From positions 1 through 39,227 of the forward strand of contig JAFTJI010000224.1 in the NCBI GenBank assembly GCA_017456495.1: 39,227 nucleotides of DNA, written 5' to 3'. How positions within the stretch are numbered: the stretch's first letter is position 1; every line of letters begins with the position of its first letter. This stretch comes from Lentisphaeria bacterium (GTDB lineage: Bacteria > Verrucomicrobiota > Lentisphaeria > Victivallales > UBA1829). The position numbers and the translations under genes were made by a program. The notes beneath the pieces were generated by a model. It was not told where the DNA came from. It was given only the letters and a program-made list of their open reading frames with translations, and ran no database searches. This document shows positions 1,795 to 37,771 of the stretch, one piece after another.

Positions 1795-1935
1795 ATGTGT
1801 TCCACAAACAAAAAAGTTTTTACCTTGATTGAGTTGCTTGTTGTAATTGCGATTATCGCTATAACAACAAGAAGTTCTATCAGCGTAAAACATGCACACC
1901 TTGTACCGGATGACGGTTCCATCGACAATTTCTGA
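1795..1935 (+). pseudogene. 5' remnant of a pseudopilin gene (plus strand)
   Basis: An ATG preceded by AGGCAGG opens a 46-codon frame with short N-terminus 'MCSTNKKV' and then '[16 protein letters not shown]', the standard start of a Lentisphaerota/Planctomycete pseudopilin. The match ends at the centre of a palindrome near 1854. From there the frame runs backwards through another pseudopilin gene read antisense and stops at 1935. The rest of a normal protein (about 200-250 residues with an H-X9-DG motif) is missing, so this is a remnant. Confidence 0.6.
1818..1890. repeat. Imperfect 73-bp palindrome of two pseudopilin 5' ends
   Basis: The sequence and its reverse complement both encode [16 protein letters not shown]. 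The exact core is GCGATTATCGC at 1849-1859, centred at 1854, and the ends are TTTTAC/GTAAAA. Mismatches fall mostly at synonymous codon positions. Confidence 0.8.
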
Positions 1936-1966
1936 AAGCTTTTCATTTTTTTTCCTTTATATAATG

Positions 1967-3355
1967 TTATGAGTAAAAGCGTAATACACTGTCTATGATC
2001 TTCTCTCTGGAAAGCGAACCTTCCAGATATTGTTCCAGATAGGGGAGCATGGCATTCCCCACCGGAGCCGGATAACTTCTCGGGTTTTCCCTGCAGCTGT
2101 TGAAGTATTTCAGGGCTTCTTCCGTCGTTGAAAAATCAAGTGTCTTCAAAGAATCCACCCTGACAGGTGCGCTGCGCAGGGATTTCCAGAGCGTGTTCTG
2201 AACCGGTTCGGAGAGCAGATATTCCGTGAAAGAAAATGCTTCCTGATGATGTTCTGAACTTTTGCAAATCGCAACAGAACCGCAGCTGCCCCAGAAGTAA
2301 CAGCCTTCGCGTACCGAAAACAGCACATCTTCATATTCAGCAAGATCCTGATCTTCCCGATACAGAAATAAATTGGAAAGAGATTGCCGGCAGAACATTT
2401 TTCCGGGCGAATTGGCTTTCCATGGTCTGCTGTAGCCGGATGCCGCAAAAGCATTTTTTCTGGAACGGATGAGATCAAACCTGTCAAGGATCAGATTACA
2501 ATGTTCCAGAATGATCTTTTGGGAAAACTCTGCAGGGATCCCCAGTCCCCGGCAGAGATCATAATAAATATTGAACAGAGGAATTTCTTCCGGAATGTTT
2601 TTGATGACTCCGGAGAGCATTTCCTCGAAGGAAAGATCTTTGACATGTCTTCCATTCTGAATATGATAAGGCTTCAAAAATTGCGCAACGGGAAAGGTGA
2701 AAAGATAAGGATAGGTGTAATCCCGGAGCAGCTGTGAAGTTTCAGTAAGAACGTTGATCAGAAACTCATCTGACAGCAGATGAGCTTTGACAGCAGGTTT
2801 CAGCGGTTGAAAATGTTCTTCGATCCCTTTCTTCCAGCGATAGGAAACGGGCAGAACGGCAATATCGAACTTTTCCTGTTCAATCAGGTCCCAATATTGG
2901 CAGTCGTCAGTATAATCGCAAACCGCAGAGACCGGAACCAGTTCATGCGCCGGGAGCAGGGCGTTGAATTTATCAATGAGCTGTGCCCAGAATTGTTTCT
3001 GCAAAGGATGCTCTTCAAACAGCAGAATCTTCATCTGAATTTTAGATGGATCAATGGTGTAAGATGATGCACCATTGTTTGGTTTGTATGCACCATCTTT
3101 GTGATTGACGAAGGTTTTGTGACCTTTTCTCTGCAACATTTCTGCTTCAAGAAACGGTCTGAGAGCCTGTCGCAAAGTCCGCCTGTTAACGTTCAGAAAA
3201 ACAGAGAGTTCCCGTTCGGATGGAAAGAGCGTTTCATGCTCACAATCATTGAGCCATGCGGAAAATCCCTTCCGCAGCTGCAGGTACAAGGCTGTCTCTG
3301 CACCATTATTCAAATGTTGGGAAAAATATTTTGTTCGTATAGATTCTGAAATCAT
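1967..3355 (-). CDS. GntR-type DNA-binding domain fused to a sugar-binding-protein-like domain
   Basis: Residues about 20-85 form a GntR winged helix: 'ALYLQLRKGFSAWL', 'LFPSERELSVFLNVNRRTLRQAL' and the 'EAEMLQRKGHKTFV' wing. A short Asn/Gly linker follows. The remaining roughly 350 residues look like a family 1 extracellular solute-binding protein: 'MKILLFEEHPLQKQFWAQLIDKFN', 'FDIAVLPVSY', and near the end 'EAFSFTEYLLSEPVQNTLW'. There is no signal peptide, so the binding domain probably acts as a cytoplasmic ligand sensor, as LacI/GalR proteins do with a different fold. It is probably self-regulated, since palindromic sites flank and overlap its own promoter. It may also control the divergent exporter operon. 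The ligand is unknown. Confidence 0.75.
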   Translation of the reverse strand: MISESIRTKYFSQHLNNGAETALYLQLRKGFSAWLNDCEHETLFPSERELSVFLNVNRRTLRQALRPFLEAEMLQRKGHKTFVNHKDGAYKPNNGASSYTIDPSKIQMKILLFEEHPLQKQFWAQLIDKFNALLPAHELVPVSAVCDYTDDCQYWDLIEQEKFDIAVLPVSYRWKKGIEEHFQPLKPAVKAHLLSDEFLINVLTETSQLLRDYTYPYLFTFPVAQFLKPYHIQNGRHVKDLSFEEMLSGVIKNIPEEIPLFNIYYDLCRGLGIPAEFSQKIILEHCNLILDRFDLIRSRKNAFAASGYSRPWKANSPGKMFCRQSLSNLFLYREDQDLAEYEDVLFSVREGCYFWGSCGSVAICKSSEHHQEAFSFTEYLLSEPVQNTLWKSLRSAPVRVDSLKTLDFSTTEEALKYFNSCRENPRSYPAPVGNAMLPYLEQYLEGSLSREKIIDSVLRFYS

Positions 3356-3374
3356 GATAATCTCTTTGTTTTAT

Positions 3375-3388
3375 ATGGTGTACACCAT
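3375..3388. promoter_or_regulatory. Palindromic operator for the GntR-fusion regulator
   Basis: ATGGTGTACACCAT is a perfect 14-bp palindrome lying just downstream of the predicted transcription start of the minus-strand regulator gene, where bound protein would block the polymerase. A related half-site, ACACCA at 3404-3409, sits two helical turns away inside the promoter. Confidence 0.6.
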
Positions 3389-3393
3389 TCTTT

Positions 3394-3406
3394 TGTATAT
3401 TATACA
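3394..3406. promoter_or_regulatory. Second palindrome over the -10 of the regulator gene
   Basis: TGTATATTATACA is a perfect 13-bp palindrome covering the -10 hexamer. With the operator at 3375-3388 it gives two dyads centred about 18-19 bp apart, a layout expected for cooperative autorepression. Confidence 0.4.
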
Positions 3407-3427
3407 CCAAATTGCGTGTGTTGTCAA
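3399..3427 (-). promoter_or_regulatory. Consensus sigma-70 promoter of the GntR-fusion gene
   Basis: On the minus strand TTGACA (3422-3427) and TATAAT (3399-3404) are both perfect hexamers separated by exactly 17 bp. The predicted start near 3392 gives a leader of about 37 nt to the ATG at 3355. So strong a promoter in front of a regulator fits tight repression through the adjacent palindromes. Confidence 0.75.
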
Positions 3428-3487
3428 GAGTGGATTCATAAAAAAAAGAGTCTTTTTTTATGGTACTGTCATCTTGTATTTCACTGC

Positions 3488-3515
3488 TTGAAAATTTTTA
3501 ATCCTAATATATATT
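3488..3515 (+). promoter_or_regulatory. Candidate promoter of the MATE-NAT operon
   Basis: TTGAAA (3488-3493) and TATATT (3510-3515) with a 16-bp spacer lie about 40 bp upstream of the exporter start. Confidence 0.4.
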
Positions 3516-3557
3516 AACCGTCTTTGGACAGTTATATCAAAAAGGAGATACTTGTTC

Positions 3558-4922
3558 ATGTTTTTCAAGGAATTGTTTCAGGATAAGACATTCAACCGGA
3601 AACTGTGGGACTTGACGTTGCCGATCACATTGCAGAGCCTGATGCTCGCTCTGGTTGCGGCGGCAGATGCGCTGATGCTCGGGATGGTAAGTCAGGATGC
3701 AATGGCGGCAGTTTCTCTGGCAACTCAGATCCAGTTTGTTCAAAATATGCTTCTGGGCGGGATTGTGGCGGGTGTCGGGATCCTCGGTGCGCAATACTGG
3801 GGAAAAAAGGATCGTCTGGTTCTCAGCAAGATTTTCGGCATGAGTGTTCAGGAAACGCTACTCGTTTCCGTTGTATTTTTCATTGGCTGTTATTATTATC
3901 CTGAGAAACTGATGCTTCTGTTTGCGCATGATGAACGTCTTGTGTCGCTTGGTGCGGAATACCTGAAAGTTGCCAGCTGGTCCTATCTTCTGACAGGGAT
4001 TTCCCAATCTTATCTTGCGACGATGCGTGTGACTGACCACGCCAGCCGTTCTGCATGGATCAGTTCAGGGGCTGTTGTGCTGAATATCGTGTTGAATATA
4101 GTTTTTATTTTTGGATATTTCGGTGCGCCTGCGATGGGGGTGAAAGGGGCTGCTCTGGCGACAGCGTTTGCCCGGCTCATTGAGCTTGGCTGGTGCGTAG
4201 TTTCGACCTTTGAGAAGAGCTTCATCCGGCTGCGGTTCAAGTATATTTTCAAGATCGAAAAGAGGCTGCTGCTTGATTTCTGGAAATATTCTCTTCCGGT
4301 TCTTGGGGCGTATATGCTTTGGGGGAGCGGATTTACTGCTTATACCGCATTGATGGGGCATATGGGACCGGATGCAGCTGCAGCAAATGCCGTTGCTGCT
4401 GTGGTACGGGATTTGATGTGCTGTCTCTCTTCCGGCATTGCCGGAGGAAGTGCAATCGTTGTCGGAAACGCATTGGGGGCAGGGGATTTGAACCTCGGTC
4501 GCCTCTATGGCAGGCGCATTACGATTCTTTCTTTCCTGATCGGATTTCTCTGTACGCTTGTGATCCTCTGTTCGATTCCGCTGGTTTCCTGTTTTATCAA
4601 GCTGACGGATCAGGCTTATGATTACATGGTTGGCATGTTCCTGATCCTTTCGGTCTATATGATCGGACGAAGTGTCTGCACTGTGGTGATCAACGGGGTG
4701 TTTTCCGCGGGCGGCGATACAATGTTTGATGTGTACAGTCTGGCGGTCTGCATGTGGGGGATCGCTTTGCCGATTGCGTTTACCGGAGCTTTTTATTTTC
4801 ACTGGCATGTTCTTGTGATTTACGGCTGCACCTGTCTGGATGAAGTGGGAAAAGTTCCATGGGTTATCCATCATTACAGAAAATACAAGTGGGTAAAAAA
4901 TCTTACCCGGGAGAATATCTGA
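3558..4922 (+). CDS. MATE-family multidrug/metabolite exporter
   Basis: A 454-residue polytopic membrane protein with about twelve hydrophobic segments in two similar halves, as in MATE/DinF/NorM transporters. Typical features are 'LTLPITLQSLMLALVAAADALMLG' near the start, 'GVKGAALATAFARLIE' at the end of the first half, and 'AGGDTMFDVYSLAVCMWGIALPIAF' in the second. MATE proteins export drugs or cationic metabolites by Na+ or H+ antiport. The substrate cannot be inferred. The ATG at 3558 has AAGGAG at good distance. A TTG at 3552 is an alternative but sits too close. The stop codon overlaps the start of the acetyltransferase gene (TGATG), so the two are translationally coupled. The pairing suggests a modify-and-export unit. 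Confidence 0.9.
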   Translation: MFFKELFQDKTFNRKLWDLTLPITLQSLMLALVAAADALMLGMVSQDAMAAVSLATQIQFVQNMLLGGIVAGVGILGAQYWGKKDRLVLSKIFGMSVQETLLVSVVFFIGCYYYPEKLMLLFAHDERLVSLGAEYLKVASWSYLLTGISQSYLATMRVTDHASRSAWISSGAVVLNIVLNIVFIFGYFGAPAMGVKGAALATAFARLIELGWCVVSTFEKSFIRLRFKYIFKIEKRLLLDFWKYSLPVLGAYMLWGSGFTAYTALMGHMGPDAAAANAVAAVVRDLMCCLSSGIAGGSAIVVGNALGAGDLNLGRLYGRRITILSFLIGFLCTLVILCSIPLVSCFIKLTDQAYDYMVGMFLILSVYMIGRSVCTVVINGVFSAGGDTMFDVYSLAVCMWGIALPIAFTGAFYFHWHVLVIYGCTCLDEVGKVPWVIHHYRKYKWVKNLTRENI

Positions 4923-33605: not shown

Positions 33606-34322
33606 TTAAATTCCGTCGATCAGATATTGGTCATGGAATCCGGGAATATTGGGACTCAGGAGTTCAGAGATTCCGACAAAATGCCCCCAGAAGTACAACC
33701 AGTTGTCGCCGTTCAGGATTTTTTTCAGCGATCTTGTATGACCGTCAACAAAAACAAAATTGCAGGATCCTCCATGACGGAAGTCCGGAGAGTACATTCC
33801 TGTATAGGTGATGATGGCTGCGTTGTTTGATTGACCTGAGGTAGCTCCGGACTGCTTGTATGTCTGGCTGTCTCCAAACAGGATCTTCCGTCCCGGATGG
33901 GTGACACGGCTGATTTTTTTATGCACAGTTGCATTCAAATTCAATGTATAAAGCGATGCACCGTAAGACATGTTATAGGTCCCATGATCTCCGCCCCAGG
34001 CTTTATGATCGTAACTGTCAGGTGCATTTCTTGTTCTGCATTCCGTTAAAATATTGACACTTCCCAGGTAAGGCATAATTCTGTCTGAATAATATGGAGA
34101 CAGGTTATTGGGCAGATATTCATCAAAGTCTTTGACATACATCATAACAGCCAGGTTCATCTGCTTGAGATTGCCTGCACATGCTGTTTTCCGGGCAGCG
34201 ATCAGGGATCTGTTCAATGCCGGCAGCAGCAATCCGGCAAGGATCGCAATAATGGCAATCACAACAAGAAGTTCAATCAGGGTGAATTGCCGTACAGAAG
34301 ATTTTTTGTTCATCAGTTTCAT
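33606..34322 (-). CDS. H-X9-DG pseudopilin in the glycan operon
   Basis: About 238 residues. '[44 protein letters not shown]' is the N-methylation/pseudopilin start, followed by '[17 protein letters not shown]' and '[20 protein letters not shown]', the H-X9-DG signature of Lentisphaerota and Planctomycete pseudopilin-like proteins. They are expected in the inner membrane or in a pseudopilus built by the type II machine, and their individual roles are unknown. ATG 34322 has AAAGG at 10 bases; an upstream GTG 34340 would overlap the DUF4838 stop (GTGA). Gln occupies -1. It lies between two large glycan-enzyme-like genes in one operon. Confidence 0.88.
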
Positions 34323-34336
34323 GGTAAGAAAACCTT

Positions 34337-37300
34337 TCACTTGGCGCGTTCAATTGTTATTGATATGTTTTTCAGTTCCAGCTTTGTATCAGGGAAAGCG
34401 TAAAACATCGGACGGAATACAGACGGGTTCTTTCCCGGACGGTTTTTGACAACAAAGACCGTCTCCATCTCTGTAAACTGATCCGGTGTATTCAACATCG
34501 TCCGTTTATGTTCCAGGAAGGAATATCCCCTGACCGTATCATAAAAGAAGTACATTCCCGGAGCAAAAAGACCTTTTCCTTTCACGGAATAGCGGACGGT
34601 GATCTTATCGCCATCTTTGCACGGGAACTTATTCTTGTGCAGGAGATATCTGTACCGCTTGAGATCCGGCATTTTTGTTCCGAAATCCACGACCCCGTCC
34701 TGAGCGGAAAGTGCTGCTGTCTGACCTTTTCCAAGCAATTCCCACCATTGATCCGGGAATTTTGCTCCGGGCAATACGCGGAACGCTCCATTGACTTCAA
34801 CCGTTTCTCTGTTTGTCTGCATCTGCGGGAGTTTTTCTTCTGCCGCAGGAACCAGCGTTACAGAGACATTTTTCAGTTCCAGTTTTGTGTTGGGGAACGC
34901 ATAGAACATGGGCATGAATTTTCCGGGGATTTGACCGGGGCGTGTCGTTACGATGAAAATCGTTTCCATCTCTGTGAACTTGTCCGGTGAATTAAATTCT
35001 GTACGCTTATGTTCCAGGAAAGACTGTCCCAGCAGATCGTTATAGTAAAAATACATTCCCGGCGCAAAAAGCCCTTTCCCTTTCACAGAGTAGCGGACAA
35101 TGAGCTTGTCGCCGACTTTGCAGGGATAGCGTTTTTTATGCAGAAGGTATCTGTACCGTTTGAGATCCGGAGCTTTTGTTCCGAAATCCACGATTCCGTT
35201 CTGTACGGACAGAGAAGCTGTTTGGTTTTTCGCAAGCAATTCTCTCCACTGATCCGGGAATTTTGTTCCGGGCAATACGCTGAAGGTTCCGTTGATATCA
35301 AAGGTCTGCTTCTTTGTTTCCTGGGTGATATAAATGATCCCGGGCTTCAGCATGCCTTCATGGTAATCATTTGTATAAATGGGACTCCATGAGTAAGAGT
35401 TCAGGGCACCTTTCTGGAAATCTGTGCGGTAAATGTTTGCGCTGATCGTTTCTCCAGCCCGGATTGCCGGACCGTAGCCCGGAATTTTATTGAGAGGAAC
35501 GCAGACTTTCACGATCCAGCGGTTTCCTGTCCGGATATTTTCAATCTTGATCACATCGGAGCTTACTTTCTGTTTTCGCGGGGCTCCATGGATCACTGTT
35601 CTCAGGTTGATCTCGCTCTTGCCTGACGGTGCAGCAGAAATCTGGAAGTAATCTGAACCTGCACGTTTGGCAAGAAAGATTTCCATATTGTTTTCCCAGA
35701 AGGGGGCGCGTTCCGCATTCTTCAAGGCCTTTGTATTATTTTCCTCGTAACAGATATAAAGATATTTGTCATCAGAAACGATACGGATATCCGGTTTCCA
35801 ATTGACATCTTCACCGTCGAGAGTGCGCCATTCTTTCAGCGGAGCAGCCTGTTCAAAGGAGACTTTGGAAAGATCTCCGTTTGCGGGGGCGATCCGTCTT
35901 GTCAAACCCTGAGAGATGGGCTTGTTCCGGTTTTTCTCTCTGCGTTCGAAAGCCGCGCGGCCTTCCACTGCCTGTTTCCAGATGTGATTGAAGAAACGTT
36001 CGACTCTGGCGCGTTCTTCGGGAGTGGATGCAGCTCTCCGGGCTTCGTCAATATATCCCTGCAGCATCTTCATCCGTTCCGGTGTGCCGTAATGCCAGTT
36101 TCTGCGTTCGGTCTGATACCCGTAAATATAGGATCCACCGATCACTTTGTTTCTGGAGGCTTCGCTCATATTGGCAGGATCCCAGCAGATTTTTTCCAGC
36201 TGAGAGTAGAATTTTCTCATTGCCGGTCCGGCTTTGCCGTAATAACTGCGGAAGTAATCTTCGATGATCTCATCTGTATTCACAGAAGCATCATAGGTGA
36301 TCCGGGAGGCAAGATAACATTCCAGAACATGATGCTGGATATTGATCTCTCCGAACCATCCCTTGATTCCGTCTTGAGCAAACTCTTTCATGTATTCCGC
36401 AGTTTTCCACGGATAGAGGAACGGGAAAAATTTGTTGTACCTGTAGATGATCGTCGCTTCTGACCACGGTGAAAGCATGTAGGTCCAAACCATCAACGGA
36501 CGGTTTTTGATTTCTTTATTGACCCATGTCTTGTAAACTGCATGCTGGCGCGCATAGATCCCGGGGTGATAATAAGCCTGCAGACTCAGACAGATCATGA
36601 CAGCCACGGAGGGGTGCAGTTTTGTTTTCGGGTATGTTCCGCCGCCGCTGTAACAGAGCGTGGAGATCCCGCTGTTGGGATCTTTCTTTGAAATTGCTTC
36701 TGCAAGACGGTTGATGAACTCATAACGGAGTTCCACATAGGGCTTTTTCTTGATATAAGCCTGGCAGTTTGCACACTTGCAGAAATAGTTGTTGTCGTCT
36801 TCCTGGAAGGCATAATAATAGGGCTGACCTGCCATCCTGGGACGCCAGCCGTAACTGCCGGGGACCCGTTTCCCTTTGAGAGATTCCAAAGCCTCCCAGA
36901 TGAAATAGTCCAGCGTTCCTTTCTGAGTAAGGCACAGCTGCGGCGGCAGATCGGGATCATCCGGATATTCCGGTCCGATGACTGCGGCAAGTCTTCCTTT
37001 ATACCCCTGAGCAAACAATTCATGACGTTTTTCTTTGAAGAGAACTGCTCTGTCTTTGGACTTTGCTTTGCCCCAGTACCGGAAAAAAATCCCCCAGGTA
37101 CTGTGATTGGAAATGCCGTACATCGTATTCAAACGCCAGCGCAGAAACATCATTTCGTAGTCGCGCTTCATTCCGTTTTCGATCTTGTAATTGGCAATCG
37201 CGCGGAACGCATCGAAACTGGGCGCACGGTATCTGCGGAACGGTTTTACTTTGACAGTTGCCCGCTTGGTATAGGTCATTCCAAGATCGCCGGGACCATA

Positions 37301-37771
37301 ATAACGCACATTCAGAGCATCTTCGATGAAGTCATAAACCGCGTAGGTGGTGGAACGGTAATACCAATCCCGTTTCGGGAACGTGTACCATTTTGCATAA
37401 TCAACTTTCCCGTAATCTTTTTCATCGTTCCCCATGAGGAAAATGTTATTGTCTTTGTAATCGACAAGATAATACTCTTTCTTCAGCTCCTTATCCGGAA
37501 AACCTTTCTTGAGACTTTCGCCGGATTGTCCGACGTAGATCAAGACCTTATGTTTTCCGGACGGGGTCGCGCGGATCTCCACATTGCAGGCGGCTATTTT
37601 ATTCAAAGCATATTGCAGTTCCAGTGCAGCAAACTGGGCGGAACGGACAGGTTTGTCTCCTAAAATAATTTCACAGTCAGGTTTCCCATCCTGTATCAGA
37701 ACGATTTCTTCAGCTGCCGAAACCACAACGGTCAGCAACAGAACAATAAGCAGAAAAAATTTCTTCATCAT
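34337..37771 (-). CDS. Exported DUF4838 protein with CBM9-like domain and two tandem C-terminal repeats
   Basis: 1144 residues with signal peptide (about 1-19, '[18 protein letters not shown]'). An alpha-glucuronidase-like N-domain ('[16 protein letters not shown]') lies at about 45-115. The DUF4838 TIM-barrel-like region (about 170-560) has '[20 protein letters not shown]', '[15 protein letters not shown]' and '[17 protein letters not shown]'. A CBM9/DOMON-like beta domain ('[16 protein letters not shown]', '[15 protein letters not shown]') covers about 625-815. Two copies of a roughly 160-residue module follow at about 821-983 and 989-1144, each with '[12 protein letters not shown]', '[17 protein letters not shown]' and 'FLEHKRT'. 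DUF4838 proteins are linked to glycan breakdown; the reaction is not established. Likely periplasmic or secreted by type II. Confidence 0.85.
34340..35310 (-). repeat. Tandem intragenic duplication of a ~490-bp module
   Basis: The two C-terminal modules of the DUF4838 gene are similar at DNA level: compare the stretches around 34562-34610 and 35062-35110, where most bases match. The copies are offset by about 500 bp and joined by a linker of about 6 codons. Confidence 0.8.

Follow-up and report, generated by a model that had tools for sequence, protein, structure and literature searches.

A reverse-strand gene in the 39,227-nucleotide stretch of Lentisphaeria DNA analyzed here (the window) raises two questions: what kind of protein joins a GntR-like DNA-binding domain to something resembling a sugar-binding protein, and why a word found at its promoter recurs in the DNA that encodes its own linker. 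The gene and the parts of its product are placed as follows.

1967..3355, reverse strand: GntR-SBP fusion regulator gene, an ORF of 462 aa
3107..3289, reverse strand: winged-helix (GntR) domain, residues 23-83, from Pfam GntR and the secondary structure of the model; recognition helix VNRRTLRQAL
3050..3106, reverse strand: interdomain linker, residues 84-102; pLDDT below 50 at 89-103
1970..3049, reverse strand: solute-binding domain, residues 103-462, from structural alignment and Pfam over the family

The first-pass annotation took the product for a fusion of a GntR regulator to a solute-binding protein without a signal peptide, and Pfam over the family, the predicted structure and structural matches bear out the fusion. 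In the 462-aa regulator itself, Pfam GntR is matched at residues 39-79 (E 1.8e-5; 24.7 bits, narrowly missing the cut-off of 27) and SBP_bac_8 faintly (E 0.051). Over the family, GntR is matched in all 13 members of alignment A1 (E up to 0.1; best 2.5e-10) and reaches its Pfam cut-off in 8/8 further members (27.3 to 40.7 bits). SBP_bac_8 is matched in 10 and SBP_bac_1 in 7 of the 13 at E up to 0.1, and five of the eight further members have an SBP-family match at E up to 0.01, two of them (L057 and L066) above the cut-off; these two pass the Pfam cut-offs for both the GntR and the solute-binding domain. In the AlphaFold model of the regulator (mean pLDDT 77.8), a winged helix is followed by a low-confidence linker at 89-103 and a C-terminal domain with a solute-binding fold, so that structure prediction, the check proposed at first pass, returns both domains. 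The C-terminal domain aligns with 1eu8_A (VIA-align Z 21.1, rmsd 4.5, 341 aligned), and residues 103-462 match trehalose/maltose, cello-oligosaccharide and xylo-oligosaccharide binding proteins at Z about 21; the rows of this fold search span 103-462 only, and evidence for the winged helix comes from Pfam and from the model's secondary structure. For the relative at L025 (modeled as L006), a second model has linker pLDDT below 50 at 90-101. Read by eye, the sequence has no hydrophobic N-terminal stretch that could act as an export signal, and the DNA-binding domain comes first, in keeping with the absence of a signal peptide. By its N-terminal winged helix (PF00392) the protein belongs to the GntR superfamily and, structurally but weakly by sequence, to the oligosaccharide-type solute-binding proteins with a family-1 fold. 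The models and matches thus support a predicted GntR winged helix joined via a linker to an oligosaccharide-type solute-binding domain, whose putative ligand, to judge from the fold and the gene neighbors, is a sugar.

Several known systems have a related plan. AraR, as described in the excerpt of PMC4494728, combines a GntR winged helix with a binding-protein-type sugar sensor and controls sugar use. Its C-terminal domain is of the GalR/LacI type, whereas the domain here is of the family-1 oligosaccharide-binding type, and no Peripla_BP appears among the 23 families listed for 13 members (E up to 0.1). To judge from the portion of a preprint at hand (PMC13060122), SgrR and DsvR are the nearest systems in plan, with an N-terminal HTH and a C-terminal solute-binding domain, and SgrR negatively autoregulates. 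Their domain is SBP_bac_5, in contrast to GntR with SBP_bac_8/SBP_bac_1 here, and neither an SgrR-type HTH nor SBP_bac_5 is among the Pfam matches listed for the regulator, A1 and 8 more members. MocR regulators such as GabR and PdxR likewise join a GntR helix to a large effector domain and have direct or mixed repeats (excerpts of PMC4494728 and PMC5320631), but their effector domain is aminotransferase-like and the spacers between repeats described in those excerpts are long; no aminotransferase family is listed for the 13 members here, and the fold matches are solute-binding proteins. The six GntR subfamilies in the excerpt of PMC4494728 include none with a family-1 solute-binding domain, and this lineage therefore represents a further route to a cytosolic sugar sensor. 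Among the literature matches listed, no natural GntR fusion to a family-1 solute-binding domain was found. Regulators engineered from binding domains have reportedly been studied.

The family is represented in 18 of 197 genomes of the same class (up to 8 candidates per genome were scored) and in 11 of 387 of the phylum, each of them in that class (4 candidates per genome); since so few were scored, members may have been missed. The class scan gave 32 matched places, of which 30 were analyzed; one of those left out is the second half of a broken gene in genome G006. A frame break splits that gene (L026:5525-6863) into two ORFs, with promoter and linker arrays present; the copy may be decaying, or the assembly may be at fault, and the break counts against the regulatory model set out below. 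When named genomes were searched, the regulator sequence alone yielded no relative, and alignment A2 yielded three close ones, Lentisphaeria bacterium RGIG5373 and RGIG5364 (both from sheep colon) and Lentisphaerae bacterium ADurb.Bin242, together with seven matches to the N-terminal part only. The window regulator forms a four-member clade with L024, L025 and L026 (tree support 99/99).

What this protein might bind is suggested by its own promoter, which carries the following elements.

3422..3427, reverse strand: -35 hexamer TTGACA, by sequence match
3399..3404, reverse strand: -10 hexamer TATAAT, by sequence match
3394..3406, no strand: palindrome TGTATAATATACA, overlapping the -10 box
3403..3410, reverse strand: promoter half-site TTGGTGTA, overlapping the -10 box
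3375..3388, no strand: candidate promoter operator ATGGTGTACACCAT, a head-to-head pair of half-sites shortly beyond the inferred start site

The promoter is perfect, as the earlier reading had it, with 12/12 hexamer positions matched in TTGACA-17-TATAAT (3427..3399, reverse strand), and the two palindromes that it described, one over the -10 box and one of 14 bp past the start, are both real. It further implied that the palindrome is an operator, a claim to be given up if the palindrome were absent upstream of orthologues. Taken literally the claim fails, as the 14-bp palindrome is missing from the promoters of the three closest relatives (L024, L025, L026); what stands is the half-site TGGTGYA, on or after the -10 box, and its conservation, in those relatives as 9-bp direct repeats, rescues the idea. 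At the same promoter place L024 has ATGGTGCAgtTGGTGTATATGGTGCA, L025 TTGGTGCATGTGGTATA and L026 ATGGTGTATATGGTGCA, with half-site starts 9 bp apart. In a set of 24 non-redundant family upstream regions, a lag-9 self-match of at least 7/8 bases occurs in 8 (shuffle mean 0.42, largest 3) and one of 8/8 in 4 (shuffle mean 0.04, largest 1); each of the other lags from 5 to 20 reaches at least 7/8 in at most 2/24, and lags 11, 15 and 18 have one 8/8 case each. Within the clade the best lag-9 scores are 7/8 for L026, 6/8 for L024 and L025, and 5/8 for the window, whose promoter is without the 9-bp repeat. That array geometry is not the same across species counts against a model with two arrays. An A/T-rich inverted repeat at 3437-3462 (two perfect 10-bp arms, 6 bases between) separates the regulator promoter from a promoter-like site of the divergent MATE gene.

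The half-site varies with the recognition helix. TGGwGyA is present in 8/9 loci with NRR/NRH/HRK-T helices and in 0/13 with SR[VI]T (Fisher 2.8e-5 with rows taken as independent, 0.0014 with near-copies collapsed), and TGGyAT in 11/13 SR[VI]T loci, with L059 and L060 having neither word. This correlation connects the sites with the regulator itself and not with some unrelated protein. Counted against it is the occurrence of TGGyAT in 6/9 NRR/NRH/HRK loci as well, and L076, whose helix is NRGT, has three words of the TGGTAT type, contrary to a rule on Asn alone. Outside both helix groups lie L042, L043, L044, L052, L053 and L076; L056 and L075, which have uncertain starts, were left out of the promoter and CDS counts. 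L044 belongs with L053 to a divergent GntR-SBP branch with an NKRT helix, and in its promoter (L044:2977-3030) AGTACACTA boxes recur at intervals of 11 bp and may represent a further operator code.

The first-pass annotation expected a genome search for the site to define a regulon, and no scattered regulon was found at the stringencies searched; its sites may be looser than those. With up to 1 mismatch, the 14-bp palindrome matches two places in its own assembly, its own site and one inside an ORF, and a reversed-pattern control gave 1 forward and 1 reverse match; a palindrome-based genome-wide regulon was rejected at this level, about that of the control. The direct repeat TGGTGYANNTGGTGYA has no exact match in the window's own genome and, with up to 2 mismatches, 24 forward and 26 reverse matches against 11 and 15 in the control. 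The 9-bp repeat, searched in four genomes with up to 1 mismatch, has 7 matches. Five of these are at the regulator gene: G006 and G012 each have one at the promoter and one at the linker, and G011 has one at the promoter. The remaining two lie one each in G006 and G000, against 5 for the reversed pattern. As the pattern was written from these sequences, its matches at the gene are partly by construction, and its scarcity elsewhere is what counts. A paralogue array, TTGGTATTATTGGTATTA, occurs as one exact copy in each of three genomes, always directly upstream of a GntR-SBP gene, with one further place at 2 mismatches.

Why, then, does the half-site recur within the gene? The coding copies are these.

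3299..3306, reverse strand: coding half-site ATGGTGCA, in N-G-A codons near residues 17-19
3089..3096, reverse strand: linker half-site ATGGTGCA, in D-G-A codons
3068..3075, reverse strand: linker half-site ATGGTGCA, in N-G-A codons, 21 bp from the 3089 site
3054..3061, forward strand: linker half-site ATGGTGTA, on the opposite strand, in Y-T-I codons

The three linker sites (3054, 3068, 3089) are those proposed at first pass, at about 3055-3100, as extra operators; the half-site recurs in the linker-coding DNA of the three closest relatives, and the three sites remain good candidates for that role, and the copy at 3299 is additional. On both strands of the 39-kb window ATGGTGYA has 7 copies, 6 of them inside 3054-3388. 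The four coding copies compare with a mean of 0.34 in codon permutations of the gene, and four were reached in 0/5000. The linkers of the four clade members are divergent, yet each linker-coding stretch has the half-site: ATGGTGCA, ATGGTGCA and TACACCAT in the window, TACACCACGTGGTGCA in L024, GTGGTGCATGTGGTGCG in L025 and CTGGTGTACATGGTGCA in L026. The window linker mirrors the layout of the promoter, with two same-strand half-sites (21 bp apart; 22 in the promoter) and then an opposed one. The offset from promoter to linker is 305 bp in L024, 310 in L025 and 324 in L026; in the window the same-strand pair give 314 and 313, and the opposed site 321. The 305-324 bp offsets are not all whole helical turns, which is counted against the arrangement.

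A rival explanation is that promoter arrays alone are bound and that the half-sites in the linker follow as a by-product from a conserved G-A(-Y) peptide encoded there. G-A stands in the same frame in 4/4 linkers and GAY in 3/4, and the whole-CDS count of TGGTGYA, modest in L024 (P 0.012) and L026 (P 0.025), is not significant in L025 (P 0.43), as this explanation would have it. With the protein held fixed, however, TGGTGYA is still enriched in the linkers of 4/4 clade members (P 0.00025 for the window, 0.00045 for L024, 0.008 for L025 and 0.00035 for L026), in a region picked after the sites had been seen and in the four clade members that the searched sets hold. The second half-sites, moreover, lie in other contexts or on the other strand (TACACCA in L024, T-G-V in L026, Y-T-I in the window), and in L025 and L026 the linker agrees with the gene's own promoter at 14 and 15 of 16 bases, respectively, a match reached in 0/150 codon permutations each. 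In both, the best promoter-CDS 16-mer match falls at the linker. In this unbiased comparison neither the window (0.10) nor L024 (0.95) reaches significance, and over 28 loci it adds to L025 and L026 only a borderline 0.033 in L067, outside the linker. Taken together, a peptide by-product seems to us rather unlikely.

The shorter word was adopted after tests with the strict 8-mer, which has 0 copies in the CDS of L024, 0 in L025 (A or T first) and 1 in L026, none significant; nor were subfamily-specific words significant in the CDS of nine further loci. TGGTGYA is found in 5/28 CDS, those of the four clade members and the sister L073, and 10/12 copies, across the five genes, start at CDS nucleotides 241-294. 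Within the upstream 75 bp it is present at 7 loci, among them all 5 CDS-positive ones (Fisher 2e-4, rows taken as independent); L064 and L072 have it at the promoter and not in the CDS, which counts against the two-array model. In L073 (L073:5727-7166) the linker start, from CDS nucleotide 241, carries TGGTGCACCA, which hints at a possible origin of the trait before the four-member clade.

This distribution also bears on the idea that the linker array is a relic, an operator that once lay between separate GntR and solute-binding genes, became linker when they fused and may be inactive now. Operator-like DNA at a domain junction is what such an origin would leave. The fusion, however, is common to the whole family, whereas TGGTGYA occurs in the CDS only in one clade and its sister L073, and the 16-mer test detected no other half-site types in the linkers of other members; we consider a relic very unlikely. 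Alternatively, the half-sites could act as RNA, the 5' leader pairing with linker mRNA, and the palindrome does fall within the inferred leader. In L025 and L026, though, leader and linker are the same sense sequence and not complements, an orientation on which pairing was rejected and which makes it scarcely credible.

The half-site itself is similar to that of NanR of E. coli, whose effector domain is FCD. NanR, of the FadR subfamily in the excerpt of PMC4494728, occupies a tandem array of three GGTATA repeats, downstream of where RNA polymerase binds, as three cooperative dimers, and the excerpt of PMC8012715 that reports this describes no linker-encoded array. Atu1419, a tetrameric GntR protein, forms a DNA loop between palindromes 190 bp apart and, for atu1420, has a second, degenerate site that lies within an ORF, 109 bp away (excerpt of PMC7797058); it is of the FCD/VanR type, and in that excerpt its coding site lies in a target gene, not in the regulator's linker codons. 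GntR helix, sugar-binding domain and tandem TGGTAT-like repeats are thus of known kinds, and the unusual element is the linker-encoded operator, for which the literature matches listed gave no precedent, though this does not prove absence.

One and the same half-site stands at the gene's own promoter and in its own CDS, as in an autoregulator with an auxiliary intragenic operator, and autoregulation, proposed at first pass, appears the likely mode. We think it fairly probable, from these sequence patterns, that the protein is a sugar-responsive autorepressor and binds two operators, one at the promoter and one within the gene, encoded in the linker. It would be a cytosolic one-component regulator whose GntR winged helix binds TGGTGYA half-sites and whose oligosaccharide-binding domain detects a saccharide taken up by the cell. 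As long as no ligand is bound, the protein would sit on the half-site array on or after its own -10 box and also occupy the second array about 310 bp downstream, in the linker codons. This occupancy would repress its own operon (regulator, pseudopilin and a large, probably secreted, protein), most likely via looping or a block to RNA polymerase, and ligand would close the solute-binding domain and release the DNA. Repression is favored over activation because the half-sites lie on and just past the -10 box. That the linker-coding DNA is an operator for its own protein, with selection at the DNA level maintaining arrays, similar to that of the promoter, about 310 bp downstream and with self-repression by a loop across the DNA-binding-domain codons, has in our judgment slightly better than an even chance. 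If arrays are so kept, linker amino acids would be partly set by the operator sequence, a dual coding, and a working linker array would be a clean case of regulatory DNA constraining protein sequence in a disordered linker.

The genes around the regulator bear on what it might control.

1850..1946, reverse strand: pseudopilin gene, 5' end (MKSFQ...); ATG at 1946, 20 bp past the regulator stop; left end approximate
1795..1935, forward strand: second truncated pseudopilin start, head to head with the reverse-strand one
3558..4922, forward strand: divergent MATE-family transporter gene; none beside the regulator in three close relatives (ORFs by eye)

A further possibility is that the main targets are the divergent MATE/N-acetyltransferase genes and that the protein is a drug- or arylamine-responsive repressor. 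The promoter operator does lie within the intergenic region 3356-3557, and a MATE-like ORF (by eye; L065:80-1438) is found near family member L065, one gene between. Yet the three close relatives have no MATE gene beside theirs, and in the window the operator is placed on the -10 box of the regulator itself, with the promoter-like site of the MATE gene (3488-3515) about 100 bp away, so that we regard MATE genes as distinctly unlikely main targets.

The autorepressor reading places the targets on the regulator's own strand. A pseudopilin start (FTLIEL-like) lies on the same strand within 400 bp downstream in 18/30 loci by script, in addition to the truncated one in the window, and in at least 12 loci one of the next genes is a large ORF, about 800 to 1570 aa long, that reads in the same direction. 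The large protein is probably secreted, to judge by eye from its N terminus; that of L024 has a DUF4838 domain, and for those of L025 and L026 Pfam lists nothing. Since a truncated pseudopilin lies just 3' of the regulator, the window has the usual operon start, broken. The reverse-strand pseudopilin start is cut off after the conserved motif, and the two starts join at a quasi-palindrome around 1854 (29/40 pairs) formed by VIAIIAI codons; the junction at 1795-1946 is either a true rearrangement or a mis-join at repeated genes in the metagenome assembly. Through the regulator one can also approach the question of how operons for pseudopilins and large proteins, probably secreted ones, might be controlled in uncultured gut Lentisphaeria. 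Elsewhere in the window, at 33606-37771, a pseudopilin adjoins a large DUF4838 protein, an operon of the type found 3' of the regulator in L024.
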